Assembly (NCBI RefSeq): GCF_000021645.1
Contig: NC_011661.1
Coordinates: 1,334,723-1,398,722, forward strand
DNA from: Dictyoglomus turgidum DSM 6724
GTDB taxonomy: Bacteria > Dictyoglomota > Dictyoglomia > Dictyoglomales > Dictyoglomaceae
Length of the DNA: 64,000 nt
Direction of reading: 5' to 3'
The notes under the pieces are model-generated. The model did not search any database. It was not told the origin of the DNA and saw nothing but the letters and a program-made list of their open reading frames with translations. The translations under genes and the position numbers were made by a program. Of the stretch, positions 21,247 to 31,578 are shown one piece after another (position 1 is the stretch's first letter; every line of letters begins with the position of its first letter).

Positions 21247-22170
21247 CTATCTTCCTCTTTCTTTAAGTTTATTAACTATTTTATCATATTCCAACTTATC
21301 GACAAATCCAACAAGCAAATAATCCTCTTCTTCTTTGTCAAAAATGAAATCGGGATATAAATAGAACTCTTTTATATCTCTCGTATTTTTCACATGAAGT
21401 CTTGGTCCTGTACAGGGTATAATACGCTCACCTATCTTTATGTGTTGTCTATCTAAATAAGATACTTCTACACCCTTTTCAATATAATTTTTAACCTCTC
21501 TTTCTAAATCTGAAATATCTACTTGAAGTTTCTCTTTCAATCTTATAACAAATCCATGTTTCACATCACTGTGTCCTTCAATATATCGTAAATAACCATG
21601 ATCCTCCAAAATCATTCCTGTCAGATCCTCAGCTGTATGAGCCTGCAATCTATAACTTAGAGAGGGAAAAACAATGGCTACAATTTCTTCTGGCAAAGGC
21701 CCAAAAATATTAGGTCTTGCTACAATAACTTCTTCACCTACCCCTATGAGTAGGTCTGCATTCCTCTTAATATAAGAGTAGATCAGCTCAAAATGTTCAC
21801 AAACAATTTTTCTATCTTCTTCTAAAGCTTTTAAAATAGCTTCTGCTATAAGATATATAGGATAAAAAGCTAGCTCAAATCTTACATCAAGATGGTATAT
21901 ATATTCGTAAAATCTTCCTCTCTCATAATCTTCAATAAGAGGTAAGGGCCTTCTATATACTCCTTCATCATCGTTAGTTAGATTAAGTCCTGGAAACATC
22001 CCTCTTATTAATAAGGATTTCCCTGAACCAGAATCCCCTATTAGTCCTATGAGTTTATCTTCGTGAGATAGGAAATTTTGAGCAATAATAGATCCAAGAA
22101 GCTGAAGTCTTGCTTCCCCTCGTGGAGCATAATAAATGGCCTCCCTTAATAGAACTTTTGGATGTATCAT
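21247..22170 (-). CDS. P-loop protein of unknown function linked to the fumarase-type hydratase
   Basis: 307 aa, soluble. Walker [17 protein letters not shown] is at residues 43-58; the region before it ([21 protein letters not shown]) and the [25 protein letters not shown] segment are distinctive. I have a weak memory that such proteins are named for an AlaRS/ThrRS second-additional-domain-like region; I cannot confirm this. The C-terminal part is a charged alpha/beta region. Its ATG overlaps the end of the hydratase beta subunit gene, so it is translated together with the methylaspartate-pathway genes and may be a nucleotide-driven assembly or regulatory partner (inference). Confidence 0.65.
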
Positions 22171-22694
22171 TATATCTTCCAGAAGGAGTTTCCTTTAGAG
22201 TCAATAGCCATCATGGCAGGAAAATCAAAAACCTCTAAATAATAAATGGCTTCAGGACCAAGTTCAGGAAAAGCCAAAATTTCCATATTCTTAATTCTAT
22301 CTCCAAGATACGCTCCCGCTCCTCCTACTGTTACGAGATAAAAACCTTTATATTTTTTTATTGCTTCAATTACTTCTTTACCTCGCATTCCCTTTCCAAT
22401 AAATCCCTTTACTCCATTCCTCATGAGCTCTGCCACAAAAGGATCCATCCTTTTGCTTGTAGTAGGTCCTGCAGAACCTACCACTCTACCGGGTGGTGCA
22501 GGAGAAGGTCCCATATGATAGATAATAATATCCTTTAAATTAAAAGGTAGTTCAACTCCTTTATCTATCATATCTACTAATTTTTTACAAGCTTGGTCTC
22601 TTGCAGAATACAACACCCCATTTAAAAGTATCCATTCCCCTACCTCAAACCTCTCCAATTTTTCAATATCATCAGGAATATAGATCCTTTTCAT
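22170..22694 (-). CDS. class I fumarase-type hydratase, beta subunit (probable mesaconase)
   Basis: 174 aa C-terminal-domain subunit of the Fe-S fumarase/L-tartrate dehydratase family. Typical segments are GEWILLNGVLYSARDQACKKLVD, YHMGPSPAPPGRVVGSAGPTTSKRMD and GFIGKGMRG. It overlaps the alpha subunit by 4 nt. Annotation pipelines would call it fumarate hydratase beta, but its place directly downstream of glutamate mutase and methylaspartate ammonia-lyase argues that the substrate is mesaconate (giving citramalate). Substrate assignment is inference; the family assignment is firm. Confidence 0.85.
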   Translation of the reverse strand: MKRIYIPDDIEKLERFEVGEWILLNGVLYSARDQACKKLVDMIDKGVELPFNLKDIIIYHMGPSPAPPGRVVGSAGPTTSKRMDPFVAELMRNGVKGFIGKGMRGKEVIEAIKKYKGFYLVTVGGAGAYLGDRIKNMEILAFPELGPEAIYYLEVFDFPAMMAIDSKGNSFWKI

Positions 22695-23533
22695 ATCTCA
22701 ACCCACCCATGCCTTACCGCACAGCATTGGAGATTTATTGCAAGAGTAAATCCTGCAATATGAACAGGATAACTCTCTATATTTACCGCTAAAGCTGTAG
22801 TTTTTCCCCCAAGCCCTCCAGGGCCTATATTGAGATTATTTATCTTCTCCAAAAGTTCATCTTCCAAAGATGCCCAAAAAGGATCATCATTATGTTTACC
22901 TATAGGCCTCAATAATGCTTTCTTAGATAAAATTGCAGCCTTCTCTAAAGTACCTCCTATACCTATACCCACAATTAATGGAGGACATGCGTTAGGCCCG
23001 AAAAGTTTTATATGCTCTATAATCTCATTAATTAACTCCTCTCTTGATACAGTAGGAAGTAAATTTTTTACCACACTCGCATTTTCACTTCCAAAGCCCT
23101 TTATCAGTATATTTATTCTCAACTTATCTCCATCAACCACATCATAGTGAATAACTGCAGGAGTATTGTCCTCTGTATTAATTCTCCTTAAAGGATCCCT
23201 AACTACAGACTTTCTGAGAAAATCATTTACATAAACTGTTCTTACTGCATCATTTATAGCATTCTCTATATTCCCATTAATACATAAATTTCTACCAATC
23301 TCTACAAAAGCCACCACCATTCCACAATCTTGACATACAGGAATCTTTTTTTCTTTAGCAATTTTTGCGTTTTCTATAAGAATATCAAGAACAATTTGAG
23401 CATTTTTATCTTCTTCTTTTTTTCTTGATTCTAGCAAAGCTTTTTCTACGTCCTCAGGTAAAGAAAAATTTACTTTTTCTATCAAATCTACCAACTTCTT
23501 ATAAATTTCCTCCTGATTAATGACTCTAAACAT
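22691..23533 (-). CDS. class I fumarase-type hydratase, alpha subunit (probable mesaconase)
   Basis: 280 aa subunit carrying the [4Fe-4S] cluster. Cluster Cys candidates are in PVCQDCGMVVAF, GPNACPPLIVGIGIGG and the C-terminal NLQCCAVRHGW. Other family marks are GFGSENASVVKNLLP and GGLGGKTTALAVNIES. SD GGTGGAGATAG precedes the ATG, which overlaps the DUF4387 gene end. With the beta subunit it forms an oxygen-sensitive hydro-lyase; context points to mesaconate hydration in the methylaspartate pathway, while fumarate hydration cannot be excluded. Confidence 0.87.
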   Translation of the reverse strand: MFRVINQEEIYKKLVDLIEKVNFSLPEDVEKALLESRKKEEDKNAQIVLDILIENAKIAKEKKIPVCQDCGMVVAFVEIGRNLCINGNIENAINDAVRTVYVNDFLRKSVVRDPLRRINTEDNTPAVIHYDVVDGDKLRINILIKGFGSENASVVKNLLPTVSREELINEIIEHIKLFGPNACPPLIVGIGIGGTLEKAAILSKKALLRPIGKHNDDPFWASLEDELLEKINNLNIGPGGLGGKTTALAVNIESYPVHIAGFTLAINLQCCAVRHGWVEI

Positions 23534-23843
23534 CTATCTCCACCTCAAGAAGAGGAGCATGTTGTTGGGCTCCATAAACATCAGTATCCCCAGGACTTCC
23601 CGATGGAACCCTCCTTTTTATATTAGCCTTAACAGCACTTACAGGATCAAAATAAATTACAGAAATAACATCATCTAAATTTATCCCATAAACCTGAGCC
23701 CACCAAACTTTAGAAAAATAATCTATTTCTTTTAATCTCTTATACACATAAGAATCTTTAAAAATAATGTCTATGGTAAGAATGAAGGGACCACTATTTT
23801 TAGTACGTATTACTTTTGCCAAATCAATTAATTTATGCCTCAT
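23526..23843 (-). CDS. DUF4387 family protein
   Basis: 105 aa, single small domain. Recognisable family features are DLAKVIRTKNSGPFILTIDIIF near the N-terminus and RVPSGSPGDTDVYGAQQHAPLL at the C-terminus. The family is of unknown function and usually accompanies or is fused to AtuA-like (DUF1446) proteins, exactly as here (3-nt gap from the AtuA gene). The two are probably subunits of one enzyme or complex acting in the glutamate/methylaspartate route. Confidence 0.85.
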   Translation of the reverse strand: MRHKLIDLAKVIRTKNSGPFILTIDIIFKDSYVYKRLKEIDYFSKVWWAQVYGINLDDVISVIYFDPVSAVKANIKRRVPSGSPGDTDVYGAQQHAPLLEVEIDV

Positions 23844-23846
23844 AGG

Positions 23847-25184
23847 CTAAACCTCTACAACCTCTATTGGAAATTCGTAATCTTCAAGTTTTATAAGATG
23901 GTAAATCTTAAATTCAAAAACCTCTCCCCAGATAACTTCGGAGGGAGAGAATGGAAAAGCAAGGTTTCCAGCTGTGGAAATACGGTTTTTATAACCATAA
24001 TGAAGAAGCGAAGATCTTAAAAATCCAAGTATTGTCTTTACATGATCTTGATTCTCACCTATCACCTCAATAACAATACAAAGTTCGTGGGAAAGATTCT
24101 TTTCCTTCTCCCAACTTCCCATAACTCCATTTTTCCCATATACATGGAAAAATATTTCATACTTATTTAAATCTTTAAAATTCTCCCTTAGAAGAATTTT
24201 CTGTTTTTCTAATATTTCATCTATTTGAGAAATCATGATAGGATCTCTAATTCCAGCTATACAGACCCCTCTTATACCAAGATATTTGGCTCCCTCTATC
24301 TTAATCCACTTATCCTTAGATTCTATAAACTCTGAACCCATAACCGAAACAGTTCTCTCATCTTTTTGTATAAAAACCGACTTGGTAAGATCAATAACCC
24401 CATCGGGACCAATAAGATGATAGGGATCACTTTTCTCATATAGAGTATGAGCAGCCACAGAAATAACAGTACATTTTCTATCTTCGTTAAGGGGATAAAC
24501 CTCAAAACGATCCTCAAAAATTAATCCCATGAGCCCATCTCTTCCACTACCAGGTTCAGCTGCAATTGCCCCACATTCAAGAATTTTTCCTAAATGGTAG
24601 GAAAGCCCTTTAGGATATCCTTTATAAATTGGAATTGCAGAGAACGGGGCTGGATCATAACTTCTTCCTGCTAAAATTATATTTACTCCCTTTTTATAAG
24701 CCTCAATAAAGGGCGATATACCTATTTGAGCCACAATATTATTTACATTTTGAAGATCTTCTACAGTTAATTTCGAAGACCCATCAAGTTCTTTAATTTT
24801 ATCCCCTAAAATAGCTTTTCTAACTATCTCTTTATCAATATCACTATAAATTTTGGCAACCTTTGCCTTGATATTTTCTGTCCCTAAAATCTCCTTAACT
24901 ATATCAAAAGTCCAATCTAAAGAAGATTTTGTACCACATCCTCCTGAACTTCCGACTAATATTGGTATGTCAAACTTTAAAGCCATTTTTATTAAATAAT
25001 ATAGATCCCTCTTAGTAGCGTTCCTATCAACAAAAGAAATACCTTTACCTAAGTAATAAGGTCCAGGATCTGTCGAACCTGCATCTACAGCAATAATGTC
25101 TGGCTTCTCTGAGAGGGCATTGTAATAAGTTTTTTCAGGAAAACCATATCCTAAAATAGCAGTAGGAGAGAAAATCTTAAGCAT
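23847..25184 (-). CDS. AtuA-like (DUF1446) family protein
   Basis: 445 aa. Similar to the family named after acyclic terpene utilisation AtuA: DIIAVDAGSTDPGPYYLG near the N-terminus, VGSSGGCGTKSSLDW, ILAGRSYDPAPFSA and ECGAIAAEPGSGRDG. The biochemical activity is not established to my knowledge. The start overlaps the mal stop by 8 nt and DUF4387 follows after 3 nt, so it is embedded between methylaspartate ammonia-lyase and the hydratase subunits. That position suggests a step on mesaconate/citramalate or their derivatives (inference), not terpene degradation. Confidence 0.82.
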   Translation of the reverse strand: MLKIFSPTAILGYGFPEKTYYNALSEKPDIIAVDAGSTDPGPYYLGKGISFVDRNATKRDLYYLIKMALKFDIPILVGSSGGCGTKSSLDWTFDIVKEILGTENIKAKVAKIYSDIDKEIVRKAILGDKIKELDGSSKLTVEDLQNVNNIVAQIGISPFIEAYKKGVNIILAGRSYDPAPFSAIPIYKGYPKGLSYHLGKILECGAIAAEPGSGRDGLMGLIFEDRFEVYPLNEDRKCTVISVAAHTLYEKSDPYHLIGPDGVIDLTKSVFIQKDERTVSVMGSEFIESKDKWIKIEGAKYLGIRGVCIAGIRDPIMISQIDEILEKQKILLRENFKDLNKYEIFFHVYGKNGVMGSWEKEKNLSHELCIVIEVIGENQDHVKTILGFLRSSLLHYGYKNRISTAGNLAFPFSPSEVIWGEVFEFKIYHLIKLEDYEFPIEVVEV

Positions 25185-26430
25185 CTATAACATTCAATCC
25201 TTTCTTTTTTAATATTTTTAAAGTCCTCATCATTTCGTTATAAACTATCATCAGTCCTTCATCTACGCCCATTCCTGGTTTTGCCAAAATTTGATCCGCC
25301 TGAGTTGCCAATGCAATGTGGACGGAAACCTGAGCCGACCTATCAGTTTCATTACAACTACCACCTAAATAGGCTCCTATATTGTTTTCTTTGCAATAAA
25401 GCACAGCCTCAATAGAATTGTGAATACTACCTAAAACAGGAGTCTTTATCTGGATCATATCCACTGCTTCAGCTTTAATAAAATCCTTGATATCATCTAA
25501 GCTATTACACCATTCATCTGCTACAATATCCACATTTATACCTCTTTCTTTGAGTTTTCTCTTTATTTTGCTCAAGAAATCTATTTGTAACTCTTTACTC
25601 TCCATGTCTACAGGCCCTTCAATTCTCAACTTATATGGATAACAAATCTTCTCAAGTTTTTCCATATATTCTACTATCTCATCTATATTATACTGAAAAG
25701 CAATTCCAATGGTTCCGTAAACGTCTATATGAAATATAGGATGATAATTCTCGTCTCCAAGTATTTTTACTCTCTCTTTCAACCATCCCAAATACTCTAT
25801 TAACTTTTCTCCACGCCATCCTAACTTTGTCTCTACATTATTGATGAGAGCATGAGGTAAAACATCTACTCTCTTAAGAATCATTTTATCCACATTAATA
25901 TATCTTTCATCTCCTGATTGAGCAAAAATTGGAATCTTTTTAATGTCAAAATTTAGCAAATACTCATCCCGAATAATTTCAGTCATGGTCTTTTTATAAT
26001 ATTTTGAAAAAGCATCAAGAATAGCTTGAGAAACTCCATACCTCAAAGCAGTATGAAGTTTCCTACCATTGATACTCAAGGTTTCTAACTTCTGACATAT
26101 GAATCTAAAACTTTCCCATTTCTCCTGGAAAAGAAAGGGAAATACTACATTCTCTAAATCTTTAACCAATTCTTTTGCTTTAAATAACGGTTCTCTCCCT
26201 CCTGCTCCCGAGTATTGAATAGCAGCACAATCCCCAAAGGCTATCTGATCATCATCAAGAATTAAGATTACCGATATACTTTCTCCTTTCTGTCTTACAG
26301 ATTCATAGCCTGAGGTTAAAGGAATTCCCCTATAAGCAAAGCCATCTTCTTTTGCTCCTGCTTTAATAGCCCTTTGATCATCAAAATAAAAACCTGAAAG
26401 CCCAATGGAATATAAAGCATCTTTTATCAT
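25177..26430 (-). CDS. mal: methylaspartate ammonia-lyase
   Basis: 417 aa, close to the ~413 aa clostridial enzyme. Enolase-superfamily protein removing ammonia from (2S,3S)-3-methylaspartate to give mesaconate. The N-terminus (SGFYFDDQRAIKAGAKEDGFAYRG) and the segments DDQIAFGDCAAIQYSGAGGREP, RIEGPVDME (metal Glu), VADEWCN (metal Asp) and QIKTPVLGSIHNSIEAVLYC (catalytic Lys in KTP) are all visible. SD GGAG precedes the ATG. It follows glmE by 16 nt. Confidence 0.96.
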   Translation of the reverse strand: MIKDALYSIGLSGFYFDDQRAIKAGAKEDGFAYRGIPLTSGYESVRQKGESISVILILDDDQIAFGDCAAIQYSGAGGREPLFKAKELVKDLENVVFPFLFQEKWESFRFICQKLETLSINGRKLHTALRYGVSQAILDAFSKYYKKTMTEIIRDEYLLNFDIKKIPIFAQSGDERYINVDKMILKRVDVLPHALINNVETKLGWRGEKLIEYLGWLKERVKILGDENYHPIFHIDVYGTIGIAFQYNIDEIVEYMEKLEKICYPYKLRIEGPVDMESKELQIDFLSKIKRKLKERGINVDIVADEWCNSLDDIKDFIKAEAVDMIQIKTPVLGSIHNSIEAVLYCKENNIGAYLGGSCNETDRSAQVSVHIALATQADQILAKPGMGVDEGLMIVYNEMMRTLKILKKKGLNVIDA

Positions 26431-26446
26431 AATAAATCTCCTTAAC

Positions 26447-27898
26447 CTACTTAGGTCTTCCCACTAATCTACCTTTACTTATAGCATATATGTCATCTAA
26501 TACCATTTGAAAACTAATTTCTCTCTTCTCATACTTTGCTCTCTCTTCAATCTTCTTTCTATGAAAATCTTTAATTTCTTCATCAAAGGGCAAATTTCCA
26601 AAATCAAAAAATCTTACAGCACCCTCATTATCTCTTATAGGCATAACTCTTCCCAGAGTAAACCTACTTGGAGCAAAAGGAACATCAAGCAAACCAGAAG
26701 AAAAAGCCCTTACAGTACCTAACACAAGATCTCCTTCACCAATAGAATACACACTATTTAAAATGCTTCTCACTTCTCTTTCAATGATGTATTCCTCTTC
26801 TTGAAGTTTATTCTTATCAATAAAATCCTGCGAGTCTAACATTTGAAGAACTTGTCTTGTGTTTCTTAAAGCTGCAGCATTAGCCTCTTTAGACGGAATA
26901 CCAATTGCTTCTTGAGGTGTTTTCACTATTACTTTCGTAGCTTTAGATAATACCGCTGGAACTGTACCTAAGCTTATTACCGCATAAGCCCTTGCCTCAT
27001 CCTCTGGAAACCCACCCATAAAATGATGCAAAACAGTGGTAACATGTACATCATAATATCCGAAACTTGCCAAATACTCCTTTGTTAACCTATAGAGAAC
27101 ATTAATAGAAGCGGTATCTTGAATAATATTCCCACATTGCCCATATCCCACACTAAAACTCTTTACTCCCTGCTCAGCAGCAAGTAGAGCTTCTATAATT
27201 CCAATACTTATAGAGATAGATGGAGGAACAAGGGTACCCGTCAAAGGACCAAAAGACTCTCGATTTATTATTACTCCATTTTCAGCATAGAGTCCAACAA
27301 GGTAATCCACATATTGCCAATAGAGAATTGAGTTTTCCAGAGAAACATCTTTAGCGTAAGGAATGTTATAGGTAATGCCCCCTCCTTCAAAGGAGGTAAA
27401 TCCAGCTGCAAGAGTTATTTCTGCAAGCAATCTTGCATCAGGAGTTCCATGTCTCACCTCTACTGGTACATCAACACTTTCTATTATTTCTCTACAAGCC
27501 CTAACACCATAATTTACTGCAGGAAATCCATTGAGTAAAGATCTTCCCTCTCTTAAACTCTCTTCAATACCTAATTGTGCCTCTCGGTATCTATTTTGTC
27601 TTGTATAGCTATCAATAGTAGTTGGTAATATATCTGCTCCACCCTCTTTTTGGAGGTATTGCAAAAGAAGGATATGTTCTTTTAATATAGGCACTCCTGC
27701 TCTTGGCTGAAGCAGGGTTTTTTTACTTTCATCTGCTTTTCTCAAAACATAATCTGCATATTTTTCTCTTGGTAATGAGCTTAAATATGAAACCGCTTCT
27801 TCAAAATTTACCTCCCTTCCTGTTTCCCAAGAATTTAGAACTTCTTCTCTCATCTTCAAGAAATATTTATGATCCCATTTCTTATTTTTTAAGACCAT
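26447..27898 (-). CDS. glmE: glutamate mutase (methylaspartate mutase) epsilon subunit
   Basis: 483 aa from ATG 27898, matching the length of the clostridial GlmE. It is the catalytic TIM-barrel component for the B12-dependent rearrangement of L-glutamate to 3-methylaspartate. Segments such as TIDSYTRQNRY, VNYGVRACREI, VEVRHGTPDARLLAEI and FEGGGITYNIPYAKDVSLE belong to the substrate/cofactor pocket. The longer ORF (TTG 27904) is less likely: the ATG has SD GGAGG with 7-nt spacing, located in the last codons of glmL. Confidence 0.96.
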   Translation of the reverse strand: MVLKNKKWDHKYFLKMREEVLNSWETGREVNFEEAVSYLSSLPREKYADYVLRKADESKKTLLQPRAGVPILKEHILLLQYLQKEGGADILPTTIDSYTRQNRYREAQLGIEESLREGRSLLNGFPAVNYGVRACREIIESVDVPVEVRHGTPDARLLAEITLAAGFTSFEGGGITYNIPYAKDVSLENSILYWQYVDYLVGLYAENGVIINRESFGPLTGTLVPPSISISIGIIEALLAAEQGVKSFSVGYGQCGNIIQDTASINVLYRLTKEYLASFGYYDVHVTTVLHHFMGGFPEDEARAYAVISLGTVPAVLSKATKVIVKTPQEAIGIPSKEANAAALRNTRQVLQMLDSQDFIDKNKLQEEEYIIEREVRSILNSVYSIGEGDLVLGTVRAFSSGLLDVPFAPSRFTLGRVMPIRDNEGAVRFFDFGNLPFDEEIKDFHRKKIEERAKYEKREISFQMVLDDIYAISKGRLVGRPK

Positions 27899-29274
27899 TC
27901 CCAAGCCTCCATTCTCTTCATATATCTCTCAATAAGTTTTTTAGCCTTTTCTTTACTGATCTCAGATATTACACCTATAGAAAATAATATATATTCTTTA
28001 TCAATAAAAACTTCAGGAGATATAGGCTTTAAAACAAAAGGCTCATCCTTAGAATAAATAGCTCCTTTCAATATTGTTTTTTTGTGAGGATTATAAATCA
28101 AAGGTCCACCAGTAAGAAGCAATTTTTTAACCCCCCTCAAATCTTTCCCATACTGAAAATATAAGGTTCCCATTGGAGTATAAATTACCTCTAAATGACC
28201 CACGTGTCTTTCTACACTTATTTTTACAGCATAATAAGAAAGTATTGCATCAAAATAAATATCTTCATCCTTCTCAGGTATAAAATTGGTATTTTTACTA
28301 AGAAAATATGCCCTTTCCTTTGGATTTATTTTTAAATCATTAGCTAATTTTTCTAATTCTCTTTCACCAACCGCTTCCAATAAAGATACAGCAGAAACCC
28401 TTACTCCAAGATCCCCTTCAACGGTCCTTTTTACTATTGGATCTTTCAAACCTTTCCACACAACTCCCGACTGAGTTGGTGCTCCCTCAGCCACAGAACA
28501 AACATCAGTGGTTGCTCCTCCTACATCCACCAATATACTTTCTCCGTACATCTGCGAGAATGCCTCTAAGCCTTTTAAAACCGCAAGAGGTGTTGGCATT
28601 ACTACTCCATCAATTATCTTTTTCACTTTGTCCAAACCTTTTGCATGAATTATATTTCTTAAAAAAATCTCTCTAATTAATTTCTGTACTTCATTAATAT
28701 TTATAACTCCATATTCTGGCATTACATTTTCAGTAATATACATCTCTTTATTATTTTCTCTGAAAATTTTCTCTATTCTATCTCTTAAATCCTTATTTCC
28801 AGCATAAATAAAGGGAATATTTAAGGGTAAAGTAGAAAGTTTTTGAGCATTTACCAAAGGATAATACCGGTTTCCGCCATCAGTCCCCCCTGAAAGTATT
28901 ATTATATCGGGTTTCAAAAACAAAATTTCCTCAAGATCCAAGCTTGTAAGCTCATAAGAATATACTTTTAATACCTTTCCTCCAGCAGAAAGAGCAGCTT
29001 TTTTAGCAGCCTCTGCAGTAAGATCAGGAACAAGTCCAATAGCAATTATCTTTAAGCCTCCTGCAGCACTACTAGTGGCTCTTTTTATTTCAAATTCTTC
29101 TATCCTATACCCTGTTTGAGCCTTTATATCCTCTATTACTTTACTTAGTCCTATGTTTACATCCTCACTTACTGTAGAAGGATATTTTGCCTTACCTATA
29201 ATCTCTCCTTTCTCTAAATCATAAGCCACACCTTTAGTAAAAGTACTTCCAATATCAAATATTAGAGCTTTCAT
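27889..29274 (-). CDS. glmL: glutamate mutase accessory protein GlmL/MutL (ASKHA fold)
   Basis: 461 aa. Actin/Hsp70-like ATPase pattern: LIFDIGSTFTKGVAYDLEKGEIIGKAK (phosphate 1), ILVDVGGATTDVCSVAEG (phosphate 2) and LLTGGPLIYNPHK. Proteins of this type are encoded in glutamate mutase operons between the S and E subunits and are thought to reactivate the mutase by exchanging damaged cobalamin. It is placed between glmS and glmE, the canonical order. Confidence 0.94.
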   Translation of the reverse strand: MKALIFDIGSTFTKGVAYDLEKGEIIGKAKYPSTVSEDVNIGLSKVIEDIKAQTGYRIEEFEIKRATSSAAGGLKIIAIGLVPDLTAEAAKKAALSAGGKVLKVYSYELTSLDLEEILFLKPDIIILSGGTDGGNRYYPLVNAQKLSTLPLNIPFIYAGNKDLRDRIEKIFRENNKEMYITENVMPEYGVININEVQKLIREIFLRNIIHAKGLDKVKKIIDGVVMPTPLAVLKGLEAFSQMYGESILVDVGGATTDVCSVAEGAPTQSGVVWKGLKDPIVKRTVEGDLGVRVSAVSLLEAVGERELEKLANDLKINPKERAYFLSKNTNFIPEKDEDIYFDAILSYYAVKISVERHVGHLEVIYTPMGTLYFQYGKDLRGVKKLLLTGGPLIYNPHKKTILKGAIYSKDEPFVLKPISPEVFIDKEYILFSIGVISEISKEKAKKLIERYMKRMEAWEWS

Positions 29275-29280
29275 GACTTT

Positions 29281-29694
29281 CTATTCTAATCCCAAGTCCT
29301 TTTTTAGGTCTCTAACCACATCTTCGGGCGAAGTTTTAGGAGGATATACTCTGTGAAAACCTAAATCTTTAAATTTCTTTTCTACTTCATTCCAATCTTT
29401 TTGTCCTACGCCTAAATTTCCACCTATATAGAGGATTATATCTTCAAGTCCTGCTTCCTTTAGTTTCTCCTTAAAACCCTTACAGTCAAGTTCTGCATGT
29501 CCATAAAGAGATGAAACTAAAATAGCTCTTGCTCCCGATTCAATCGCTGCTTTTATAAAATCCTCTTGTGATGATAAAACCCCAATATTCACCACATCAA
29601 AACCCGCATTTCTCAATACATAATCTAGAACTCTTAAGCCTACAGCATGAACATCTGCTCCAATGACTCCCAAAACTACTGTCCTTTCACCCAT
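29281..29694 (-). CDS. glmS: glutamate mutase sigma subunit (B12-binding)
   Basis: 137 aa from ATG 29694, the same length as clostridial GlmS. The cobalamin-binding signature DxHxxG is Asp14-Val-His16-Ala-Val-Gly19, so His16 is the axial cobalt ligand; [12 protein letters not shown] and YIGGNLGVG complete the Rossmann-like B12 fold. The ORF could start at GTG 29703, but the SD GAGGGTGA (overlapping the peptidase stop) fits the ATG. Confidence 0.96.
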
Positions 29695-29699
29695 ATATA

Positions 29700-30797
29700 T
29701 CACCCTCTTATAAGGTTATAAATCAATACTGCAGTATCATAAAGATTCTCTATTTTTATGCGCTCTTCCTTAGAATGAGCATTTTCCATTCCAATTCCTA
29801 CATTTACTGTCTTTATCCCATAGGAGTTCAAAATGTTAGCGTCACTTCCCCCCATAGTATATGTCAAATTAATTTTCTTTTCCATCTGGTTTAAAACATC
29901 CACTATTCTTCTCACAACTTTTTCCCTCTCATCAATGTTAAATCCTCTATAAAGAGTTTCTTTTCTCAAATCATAACTAGCACCTTTTTTTACCAACTTA
30001 ATAAGATTATCCTCAAATCTCCTCCACAGAGAAGAAAGATTATCCTCATCAAGACTCCTAAACTCACCTTCCAGATACACTTCATCGGGGACTATATTAG
30101 TTGCTCTACCTCCTTTTATAATTCCTACATTTGCAGTAGTAAAATCATCAATCCTACCCCAAGAAAGGTTAAGAAGAAAATCCGAAGCTAATAATATGGC
30201 ATTTATACCCTTTTCTGGGGAAGTTCCAGCATGGGAAGCTTTACCATATATGTTAAGATAAAACCTATCATGAGTTGGTGCTCTTAATATTAAAGTACCC
30301 ACATCTCCTTCTCCATCTAACACATAACCCTCCTTTGACTTTATTAAAGAAGGATCTATGTTTTTAGCTCCTACAAGCCCTATCTCTTCTCCAATAGTAA
30401 AAAGAAATTCAATCTTTTTAGTTCTTTCTTTTTTTTCTTTTATAGTTTGAATAGCTTCCACTATAGCAGATATGGCAGCTTTATCATCAGCTCCTAAAAT
30501 TGTATTTCCATCACTTAGGATGTAATCACCAGCAATCTGAGGATTTATATTCTCCCCTGGAGATACTGTATCCATATGAGCTGAGATTAAAATTGGTTCT
30601 CCATCACCATCAAGATAAGCATATAAGTTCCCCGAATTTCCACCTAAAGTTTTTCCAGCGTTATCTTCAATAACTTTTAAGCCTAAATTTTCAAGTCTAT
30701 TCTTCAAAAAAGAAGAAAATTCTTTCTCTCTTAAAGAAAGAGAGGAGATTTTTACAAAATCTATAAAGGTATTAATTAGTCTATCCTTTGATAACAC
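29700..30797 (-). CDS. M20 family metallopeptidase (PepT-like)
   Basis: 365 aa dinuclear-zinc peptidase. Ligand motifs are [13 protein letters not shown] (His, catalytic Asp), [10 protein letters not shown] (bridging Asp), [11 protein letters not shown] (general base Glu and ligand Glu) and a C-terminal [14 protein letters not shown] His; a dimerisation domain ([15 protein letters not shown]) lies between. It resembles tripeptidase T-like enzymes. It overlaps murI by 17 nt and glmS almost directly, so it may feed amino acids into the glutamate pathway (inference). Confidence 0.9.
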
Positions 30798-31578
30798 TTA
30801 CATCACTCCTATCCAAAGTTACTTTTTTGACAATCCAATCCATACCTAAGAGTTTGTTAAGAATCCCCTGAAATTCTTCTGCTTCTCCGGTGACAAAAAT
30901 CTCTACCTTTGTATTAAAATTACTATCACTTCTTAAAAAATTTATTACCTCTAAGGAAGGATCAACTACAAAAAGATTAGGATATAAGTCTTTTATAACT
31001 TTTTTTACAAAAGGAAGATGAGTACATCCTAAAATTAACCCTTCAATGTTTTTCTCTACTAATGGATCAATACACCTCATGATTTCTTTCTCAATAAGTT
31101 CTCCTTCCACTATTCCCTTTTCAATAGTCTCAAGAAGAGGTCCCTCACTGCAAGATTGAACATATACCTCGATTTTGTCTGAAATCTTTTCGTGAATTAA
31201 TCTAGGATAGATATTACTTTCCATAGTTCTTCTTGTAGCTAAAACCCCTATCTTTTTAGCCTTATAATTTTTTGCACCTTCTATAGCTCCTAAGACAATA
31301 CTATGTATTTTAAGATCTCTAAATCTATCTTTAAGAAAATCATAAGCTACTGACGATGCAGTATTACAAGCTATGATAACCTCTTCTACACCAAGACTTT
31401 TAAAGAAACTTACTATCTCAAAAACTCTTTCTTGAATAAACTCTACAGGCTTAATCCCATAAGGAAAGTATTTTGTATCGCCTAAGAAATAGACCTCATC
31501 GGCTAAATTATTTAGGTAAACTTCTTTAAGAACCGAAAGCCCACCTACACCAGAATCCAGAATACCTATTTTACTCAT
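30781..31578 (-). CDS. murI: glutamate racemase
   Basis: 265 aa cofactor-independent racemase making D-glutamate for peptidoglycan. N-terminal GILDSGVGGLSVLKE, catalytic Cys in IIACNTASSVAYD and second Cys in LILGCTHLPFVKK are intact. It overlaps the amidase gene by 8 nt and the M20 peptidase by 17 nt. Location between a wall hydrolase and the glutamate mutase operon joins the two fates of glutamate. Confidence 0.95.
   Translation of the reverse strand: MSKIGILDSGVGGLSVLKEVYLNNLADEVYFLGDTKYFPYGIKPVEFIQERVFEIVSFFKSLGVEEVIIACNTASSVAYDFLKDRFRDLKIHSIVLGAIEGAKNYKAKKIGVLATRRTMESNIYPRLIHEKISDKIEVYVQSCSEGPLLETIEKGIVEGELIEKEIMRCIDPLVEKNIEGLILGCTHLPFVKKVIKDLYPNLFVVDPSLEVINFLRSDSNFNTKVEIFVTGEAEEFQGILNKLLGMDWIVKKVTLDRSDVSVIKG

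Follow-up and report, generated by a model that had tools for sequence, protein, structure and literature searches.

The AtuA-type gene and the DUF4387 gene that follow mal in the glutamate mutase (glm) operon of Dictyoglomus turgidum very probably encode the two subunits of an acyl-carrier-free citramalate lyase, CmlA and CmlB, which would catalyze the terminal reaction of the methylaspartate pathway. This reading is supported by the end-to-end homology of both proteins to the chains of a crystallized complex, by the replacement of CitF in genomes carrying glm genes, and by the lack of CitF and CitE in the D. turgidum genome. The enzyme is already known from a named structure; what is new here is the pattern of replacement, the link to the chemistry of AtuA, and a co-conserved gene encoding a P-loop protein. 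The assignment would close the gap in the methylaspartate pathway in Dictyoglomus and, by homology, in glm-positive E. coli.

The analyzed stretch of DNA (hereinafter, the window) comprised 64,000 nucleotides of the D. turgidum genome, whose one contig spans 1,855,560 bases and contains one AtuA-family gene. According to the open reading frames and family profiles, the gene order was glmS-glmL-glmE-mal-AtuA-DUF4387-class I fumarase alpha-beta, all on the minus strand (Table 1). The preliminary description had given the same order, as well as 8-nt overlaps of mal with the AtuA-type gene and of the DUF4387 gene with the hydratase alpha gene, and both overlaps proved exact; the AtuA-type and DUF4387 genes were separated by 3 nt. 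These 8-nt overlaps suggest translational coupling of the pair to mal and to the hydratase alpha subunit gene. The true start of glmS may be the ATG located three codons in. The role of the class I fumarase alpha subunit as a mesaconase was assigned from the gene context and from published data (PMC4682846). The count of promoter-like sites was not above that in shuffled sequences, and that of terminator-like sites was only slightly above it. Immediately 5' of glmS, also on the minus strand (29700–31578), were genes resembling those of peptidase T and glutamate racemase (murI), and their products possibly supply glutamate to the glm operon.

Table 1. Genes of the glm operon in the D. turgidum window, with assigned or predicted products.
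Feature	Position in the window	Strand	Basis
glmS, B12-binding glutamate mutase subunit	29281–29703	−	NF002612 / TIGR01501
glmL, glutamate mutase accessory protein	27889–29274	−	NF040745, 575 bits
glmE, glutamate mutase E chain	26447–27904	−	TIGR01503, 736 bits
mal, methylaspartate ammonia-lyase	25177–26430	−	TIGR01502, 569 bits
Putative CmlA, AtuA-type large subunit, 445 aa	23847–25184	−	PF07287, 55.7 bits; PDB 9ERQ/9EVF chain A
Putative CmlB, DUF4387 small subunit, 105 aa	23526–23843	−	PF14330, 127 bits; 9ERQ chain B
Predicted mesaconase (class I fumarase) alpha subunit	22691–23533	−	PF05681, NF004885
Predicted mesaconase (class I fumarase) beta subunit	22170–22694	−	PF05683
P-loop and AlaX-like editing-domain protein, 307 aa	21247–22170	−	Co-conserved with CmlAB-type glm operons

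In every Dictyoglomaceae genome searched, the pair was found 3' of mal, as it was in E. coli O157, Prevotella, three Bacillota genomes, and the phylum of genome G519, and since the arrangement recurs across these groups, the adjacency of mal and the pair exceeds chance. A DUF1446 gene 3' of mal was previously described in Enterobacteriaceae and Dictyoglomus thermophilum by Kronen and Berg (PMC4682846). In Prevotella intermedia, mal and adjacent AtuA-family genes belong to an iron-dependent stimulon, with about 2-fold changes (PMC10434189), which is fitting for an operon that holds an Fe-S hydratase.

The window CmlA matched chain A of PDB entries 9ERQ and 9EVF over residues 2–440 (phmmer E-value = 2.6e-133; identity with 9ERQ chain A = 49%), and the DUF4387 protein matched chain B of 9ERQ over residues 1–104 (phmmer E-value = 3.2e-25). 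The depositors named these chains "Citramalate lyase, subunit A (cmlA)" and "subunit B (cmlB)". The only strong Foldseek match of the CmlA model was 9EVF (E-value = 8.4e-48), an entry released on 2025-10-08 under the title "Citramalate lyase - ADP - pyruvate complex"; the model was obtained with AlphaFold from three sequences and was of medium confidence (pLDDT 65), and only its match to 9EVF was used. Chain A of 9ERQ had an identity of 92% with ECs_0760 of E. coli O157, whose locus has the order glmSLE-mal-ECs_0760 (AtuA-type)-ECs_0759 (DUF4387)-transporter-fumarase (fumD). A description of CmlAB was not found in the literature search, and the name citramalate lyase is that of the PDB depositors; NCBIfam gave no match to the window CmlA or CmlB, and PHROGs gave no match. 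In 2015, citramalate lyase activity was sought in E. coli O157 and not detected, and the fate of citramalate was left unclear (PMC4682846). We infer citramalate lyase activity for the D. turgidum CmlAB from the homology described above. The earlier statement that both families lack an established function is out of date for the CmlAB subfamily, which has named PDB entries. It should be noted that in E. coli O157:H7 Sakai (locus L083, 22934–24618), RefSeq labels ECs_0760 (CmlA) as 3-methylaspartate ammonia-lyase and ECs_0759 (CmlB) as acyl-CoA synthetase, and both names look wrong.

Among the 55 GlmE-positive genomes surveyed, 33 contained CitF with no pair seen, 21 contained the pair without CitF, one contained both, and none lacked both. 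This count of co-occurrence with glmE, set against the presence of citramalate lyase, together with the homology to 9ERQ and 9EVF, strongly supports the proposal of the preliminary description that the pair replaces citramalate lyase, the swap with CitF being nearly perfect in glm-carrying genomes. The Bacillota sample consisted of 392 genomes, selected evenly across the phylum to which a Mollicutes MAG belongs and which was taken to be Bacillota. GlmE was above the cut-off in 36 of them, weak matches near or below the cut-off (E-values of 1e-3 to 1e-6) being counted as noise, and CitF was present in 33 of these 36. DUF4387 was found in 3/392 genomes, all three of which were GlmE-positive and carried the pair no more than about 4 kb from glmE; these were exactly the three GlmE-positive genomes that lacked CitF. 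The probability of this CitF/DUF4387 split arising by chance was 1.4e-4 and that of the nesting was 7e-4, values that overstate independence because the genomes are related. CitF was absent from all seven Dictyoglomaceae (7/7), each of which contained GlmE and the pair. In the phylum of G519, GlmE was found in 12/40 genomes, CmlA was located beside mal in 12/12 of these, and CitF was absent in 11/12. Genome G603 (contigs C27 and C2) was the sole surveyed genome with both systems: CmlAB was located in the glm operon, and two copies of CitF, possibly a citrate lyase component, were located elsewhere.

CitF was located 3' of mal on the same strand at a distance of 1.0–1.3 kb in 30/32 loci, and for CmlA the distance 3' of mal was at most 21 nt in 20/23 rows, one locus being represented by two rows. 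Thus, CitF and CmlAB fill the same slot after mal in glm operons, which amounts to a clean swap of one lyase for another. The preliminary description had stated that citramalate lyase is absent from the window; in the whole D. turgidum genome, the search for CitF (PF04223) gave no match, and that for CitE-type proteins (HpcH_HpaI) gave a single weak match, which is a pyruvate kinase judging from its sequence. Counted separately, the AtuA-type gene and mal were each present in 1096/5426 complete E. coli genomes.

Other roles for the pair were considered against this background. The pair could be an accessory or alternative hydratase or isomerase acting on mesaconate, with citramalate being cleaved by another enzyme, and its position immediately ahead of the hydratase genes in Dictyoglomus, as well as the lack of a fumarase near the pair in the 14–15 kb fetched from Bacillota genomes G146 and G238 (L090 and L091), would agree with this. 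However, the pair is kept where a fumarase-type mesaconase is present (Dictyoglomus, E. coli, and Prevotella), it swaps with CitF and not with fumarase, and the PDB titles name a citramalate lyase with pyruvate bound, which makes such a role very improbable. There is similarly little reason to expect that the pair is a CoA-transferase or citramalyl-CoA lyase of a CoA-ester route. Although citramalyl-CoA is cleaved in other organisms (PMC4682846, Fig. 2) and both terpene AtuA and ThnQS use CoA esters (PMC4847356, PMC12016498), the operon contains no CoA-transferase or CitE-type lyase, the HpcH_HpaI match mentioned above is the only one in the genome, and the title of 9EVF lists ADP and pyruvate and no CoA.

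Hardly any probability was given to a terpene-type AtuA carried as a passive passenger with no part in glutamate breakdown, for which only the Pfam name speaks, whereas the linkage to mal recurs across unrelated phyla, the match of the window CmlA to PF07287 is weak and split in two pieces, the AtuA_ferredoxin domain (PF23544) was not found in either window protein, and canonical AtuA is set apart from the CmlA clade by a branch with 100/100 support. The identity between canonical AtuA and the window CmlA was 16–20%, and no geranyl-CoA carboxylase or other atu genes were present among the neighbouring genes scanned in the window. In the same tree, CmlA of Dictyoglomaceae formed its own clade, the position of which among the pairs of other contexts was not fixed by the tree. 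The preliminary description had considered that nothing supports the terpene catabolism implied by the AtuA name; indeed, the name is no evidence of terpene use, but it does hint at the chemistry, since terpene AtuA has been tentatively assigned as an acetate-releasing lyase acting at a tertiary hydroxyl carbon (PMC4847356). The terpene reaction has been attributed to LiuE as well (PMC4097962).

In the canonical AtuA loci scanned, PF23544 was either fused to AtuA or encoded by the next gene, and CmlA was always accompanied by a DUF4387 gene in the loci examined, save those cut by contig ends. Comparison of the DUF4387 and PF23544 profiles with hhalign (E-value = 4.8e-5, 101 columns, probability 68%) gave a score of 33.1 against a maximum of 21.9 among 100 column shuffles, which hints that the two small parts may be homologous. 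The residues kept in both the CmlA and the canonical AtuA clades include R174, D177, E203, E250, K295, and E367; in CmlB, the conserved residues include R13, K15, D25, and K72.

The pair also occurs without glm and mal, which means that not every CmlAB-type protein can be a citramalate lyase of the methylaspartate pathway. In Proteobacteria, such pairs had tricarboxylate transporter genes or an RraA-family gene as neighbours, and in Klebsiella plasmids they were next to aldehyde dehydrogenases and a fumarase. On one conjugative Klebsiella plasmid (NZ_CP055107.1, locus L131, 7980–16039), the pair, with a CmlA of 51% identity to that of the window and no glm or mal, was accompanied by aldehyde/alcohol dehydrogenases and a class I fumarase; it perhaps serves a C5 diacid pathway. 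In genome G496 (G496:C1:1131600-1147600; locus L088, 7061–11655), the pair was found in a pantothenate cluster with the order panB, panC, a 121-aa ORF, CmlA, CmlB, and a panE-like gene; GlmE had no match in this genome, and it seems likely that this pair acts on a different substrate.

In the proposed pathway, glutamate would be converted to methylaspartate by GlmSLE, methylaspartate to mesaconate by Mal, and mesaconate to (S)-citramalate by the class I fumarase pair; CmlAB would then cleave (S)-citramalate, yielding pyruvate together with either acetate or an activated acetyl product. This cleavage is envisaged as an ACP-free retro-aldol reaction with nucleotide assistance, in which, in the simplest case, ATP would activate the substrate carboxylate and thereby stabilize the leaving CH2COO- carbanion, so that carboxyl activation would do the job of the acyl-carrier-protein thioester of classical citramalate lyase. 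A nucleotide probably takes part in the cleavage, as suggested by the ADP–pyruvate complex in 9EVF, a nucleotide in a crystal being no proof of catalytic use. The AtuA-like proteins ThnQ/ThnS cleave beside a tertiary hydroxyl carbon, according to a review citing unpublished results (PMC12016498). In citramalate, as in the substrates of AtuA and ThnQ/ThnS, a tertiary alcohol adjoins a CH2 that carries a free carboxylate, and from this we infer by analogy a retro-aldol chemistry common to AtuA-type proteins and CmlAB. A broader proposal, possible rather than probable in our estimation, is that AtuA and DUF4387 proteins form one superfamily of two-part nucleotide-assisted lyases acting at a tertiary hydroxyl with a free-carboxylate leaving group, whose substrates would include citramalate, isohexenylglutaryl-CoA, the naphthalene ring-II acid, and others; the ATP that the glm pathway spends on carboxyl activation would, speculatively, be regained as acetyl phosphate. 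Through the CmlAB assignment, the AtuA-type and DUF4387 family names gain a testable shared chemistry.

The gene encoding the 307-aa protein was located directly 3' of the fumarase beta gene (mesB), and its product contained a Walker A motif and, C-terminally, an AlaX-like region. Its low-confidence AlphaFold model (three sequences, pLDDT 55) matched AlaX-M (Foldseek E-value = 2.9e-6), and the TsaE and tRNA_SAD profile matches were weak. In a PDB profile search with this protein, matches were confined to the Walker A stretches of ATPases and were rejected. The gene was present in 18 of the 22 distinct CmlAB-type glm loci; three of the remaining four were cut by contig ends, and the fourth was that of E. 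coli. It was found in none of the 32 CitF-type glm loci and in none of the 13 loci with the pair and without glm.

Comparison with known systems places the D. turgidum pair closest to its namesakes, CmlA and CmlB of 9ERQ and 9EVF: both window subunits are homologous to them end to end and form the same adjacent pair, and the E. coli relative is likewise encoded in a glmSLE-mal-pair order together with a class I fumarase gene. Meanwhile, the D. turgidum pair comes from the deep-branching Dictyoglomaceae, its fumarase is split into subunits encoded directly 3' of the pair, and it is accompanied by the P-loop/AlaX-like gene, none being present near the E. coli operon. The classical CitDEF of clostridia and Bacilli shares with CmlAB the predicted reaction and the position after mal (PMC4682846), whereas CmlAB consists of two genes with no acyl-carrier subunit, and the D. 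turgidum genome has no CitF. AtuA-type systems resemble CmlAB in their assigned or reported cleavage beside a carbon bearing a tertiary hydroxyl (PMC4847356, PMC12016498), and canonical AtuA likewise consists of a large and a small part, either fused or adjacent; however, its substrates are CoA esters, and its small part is PF23544, where CmlAB has DUF4387.
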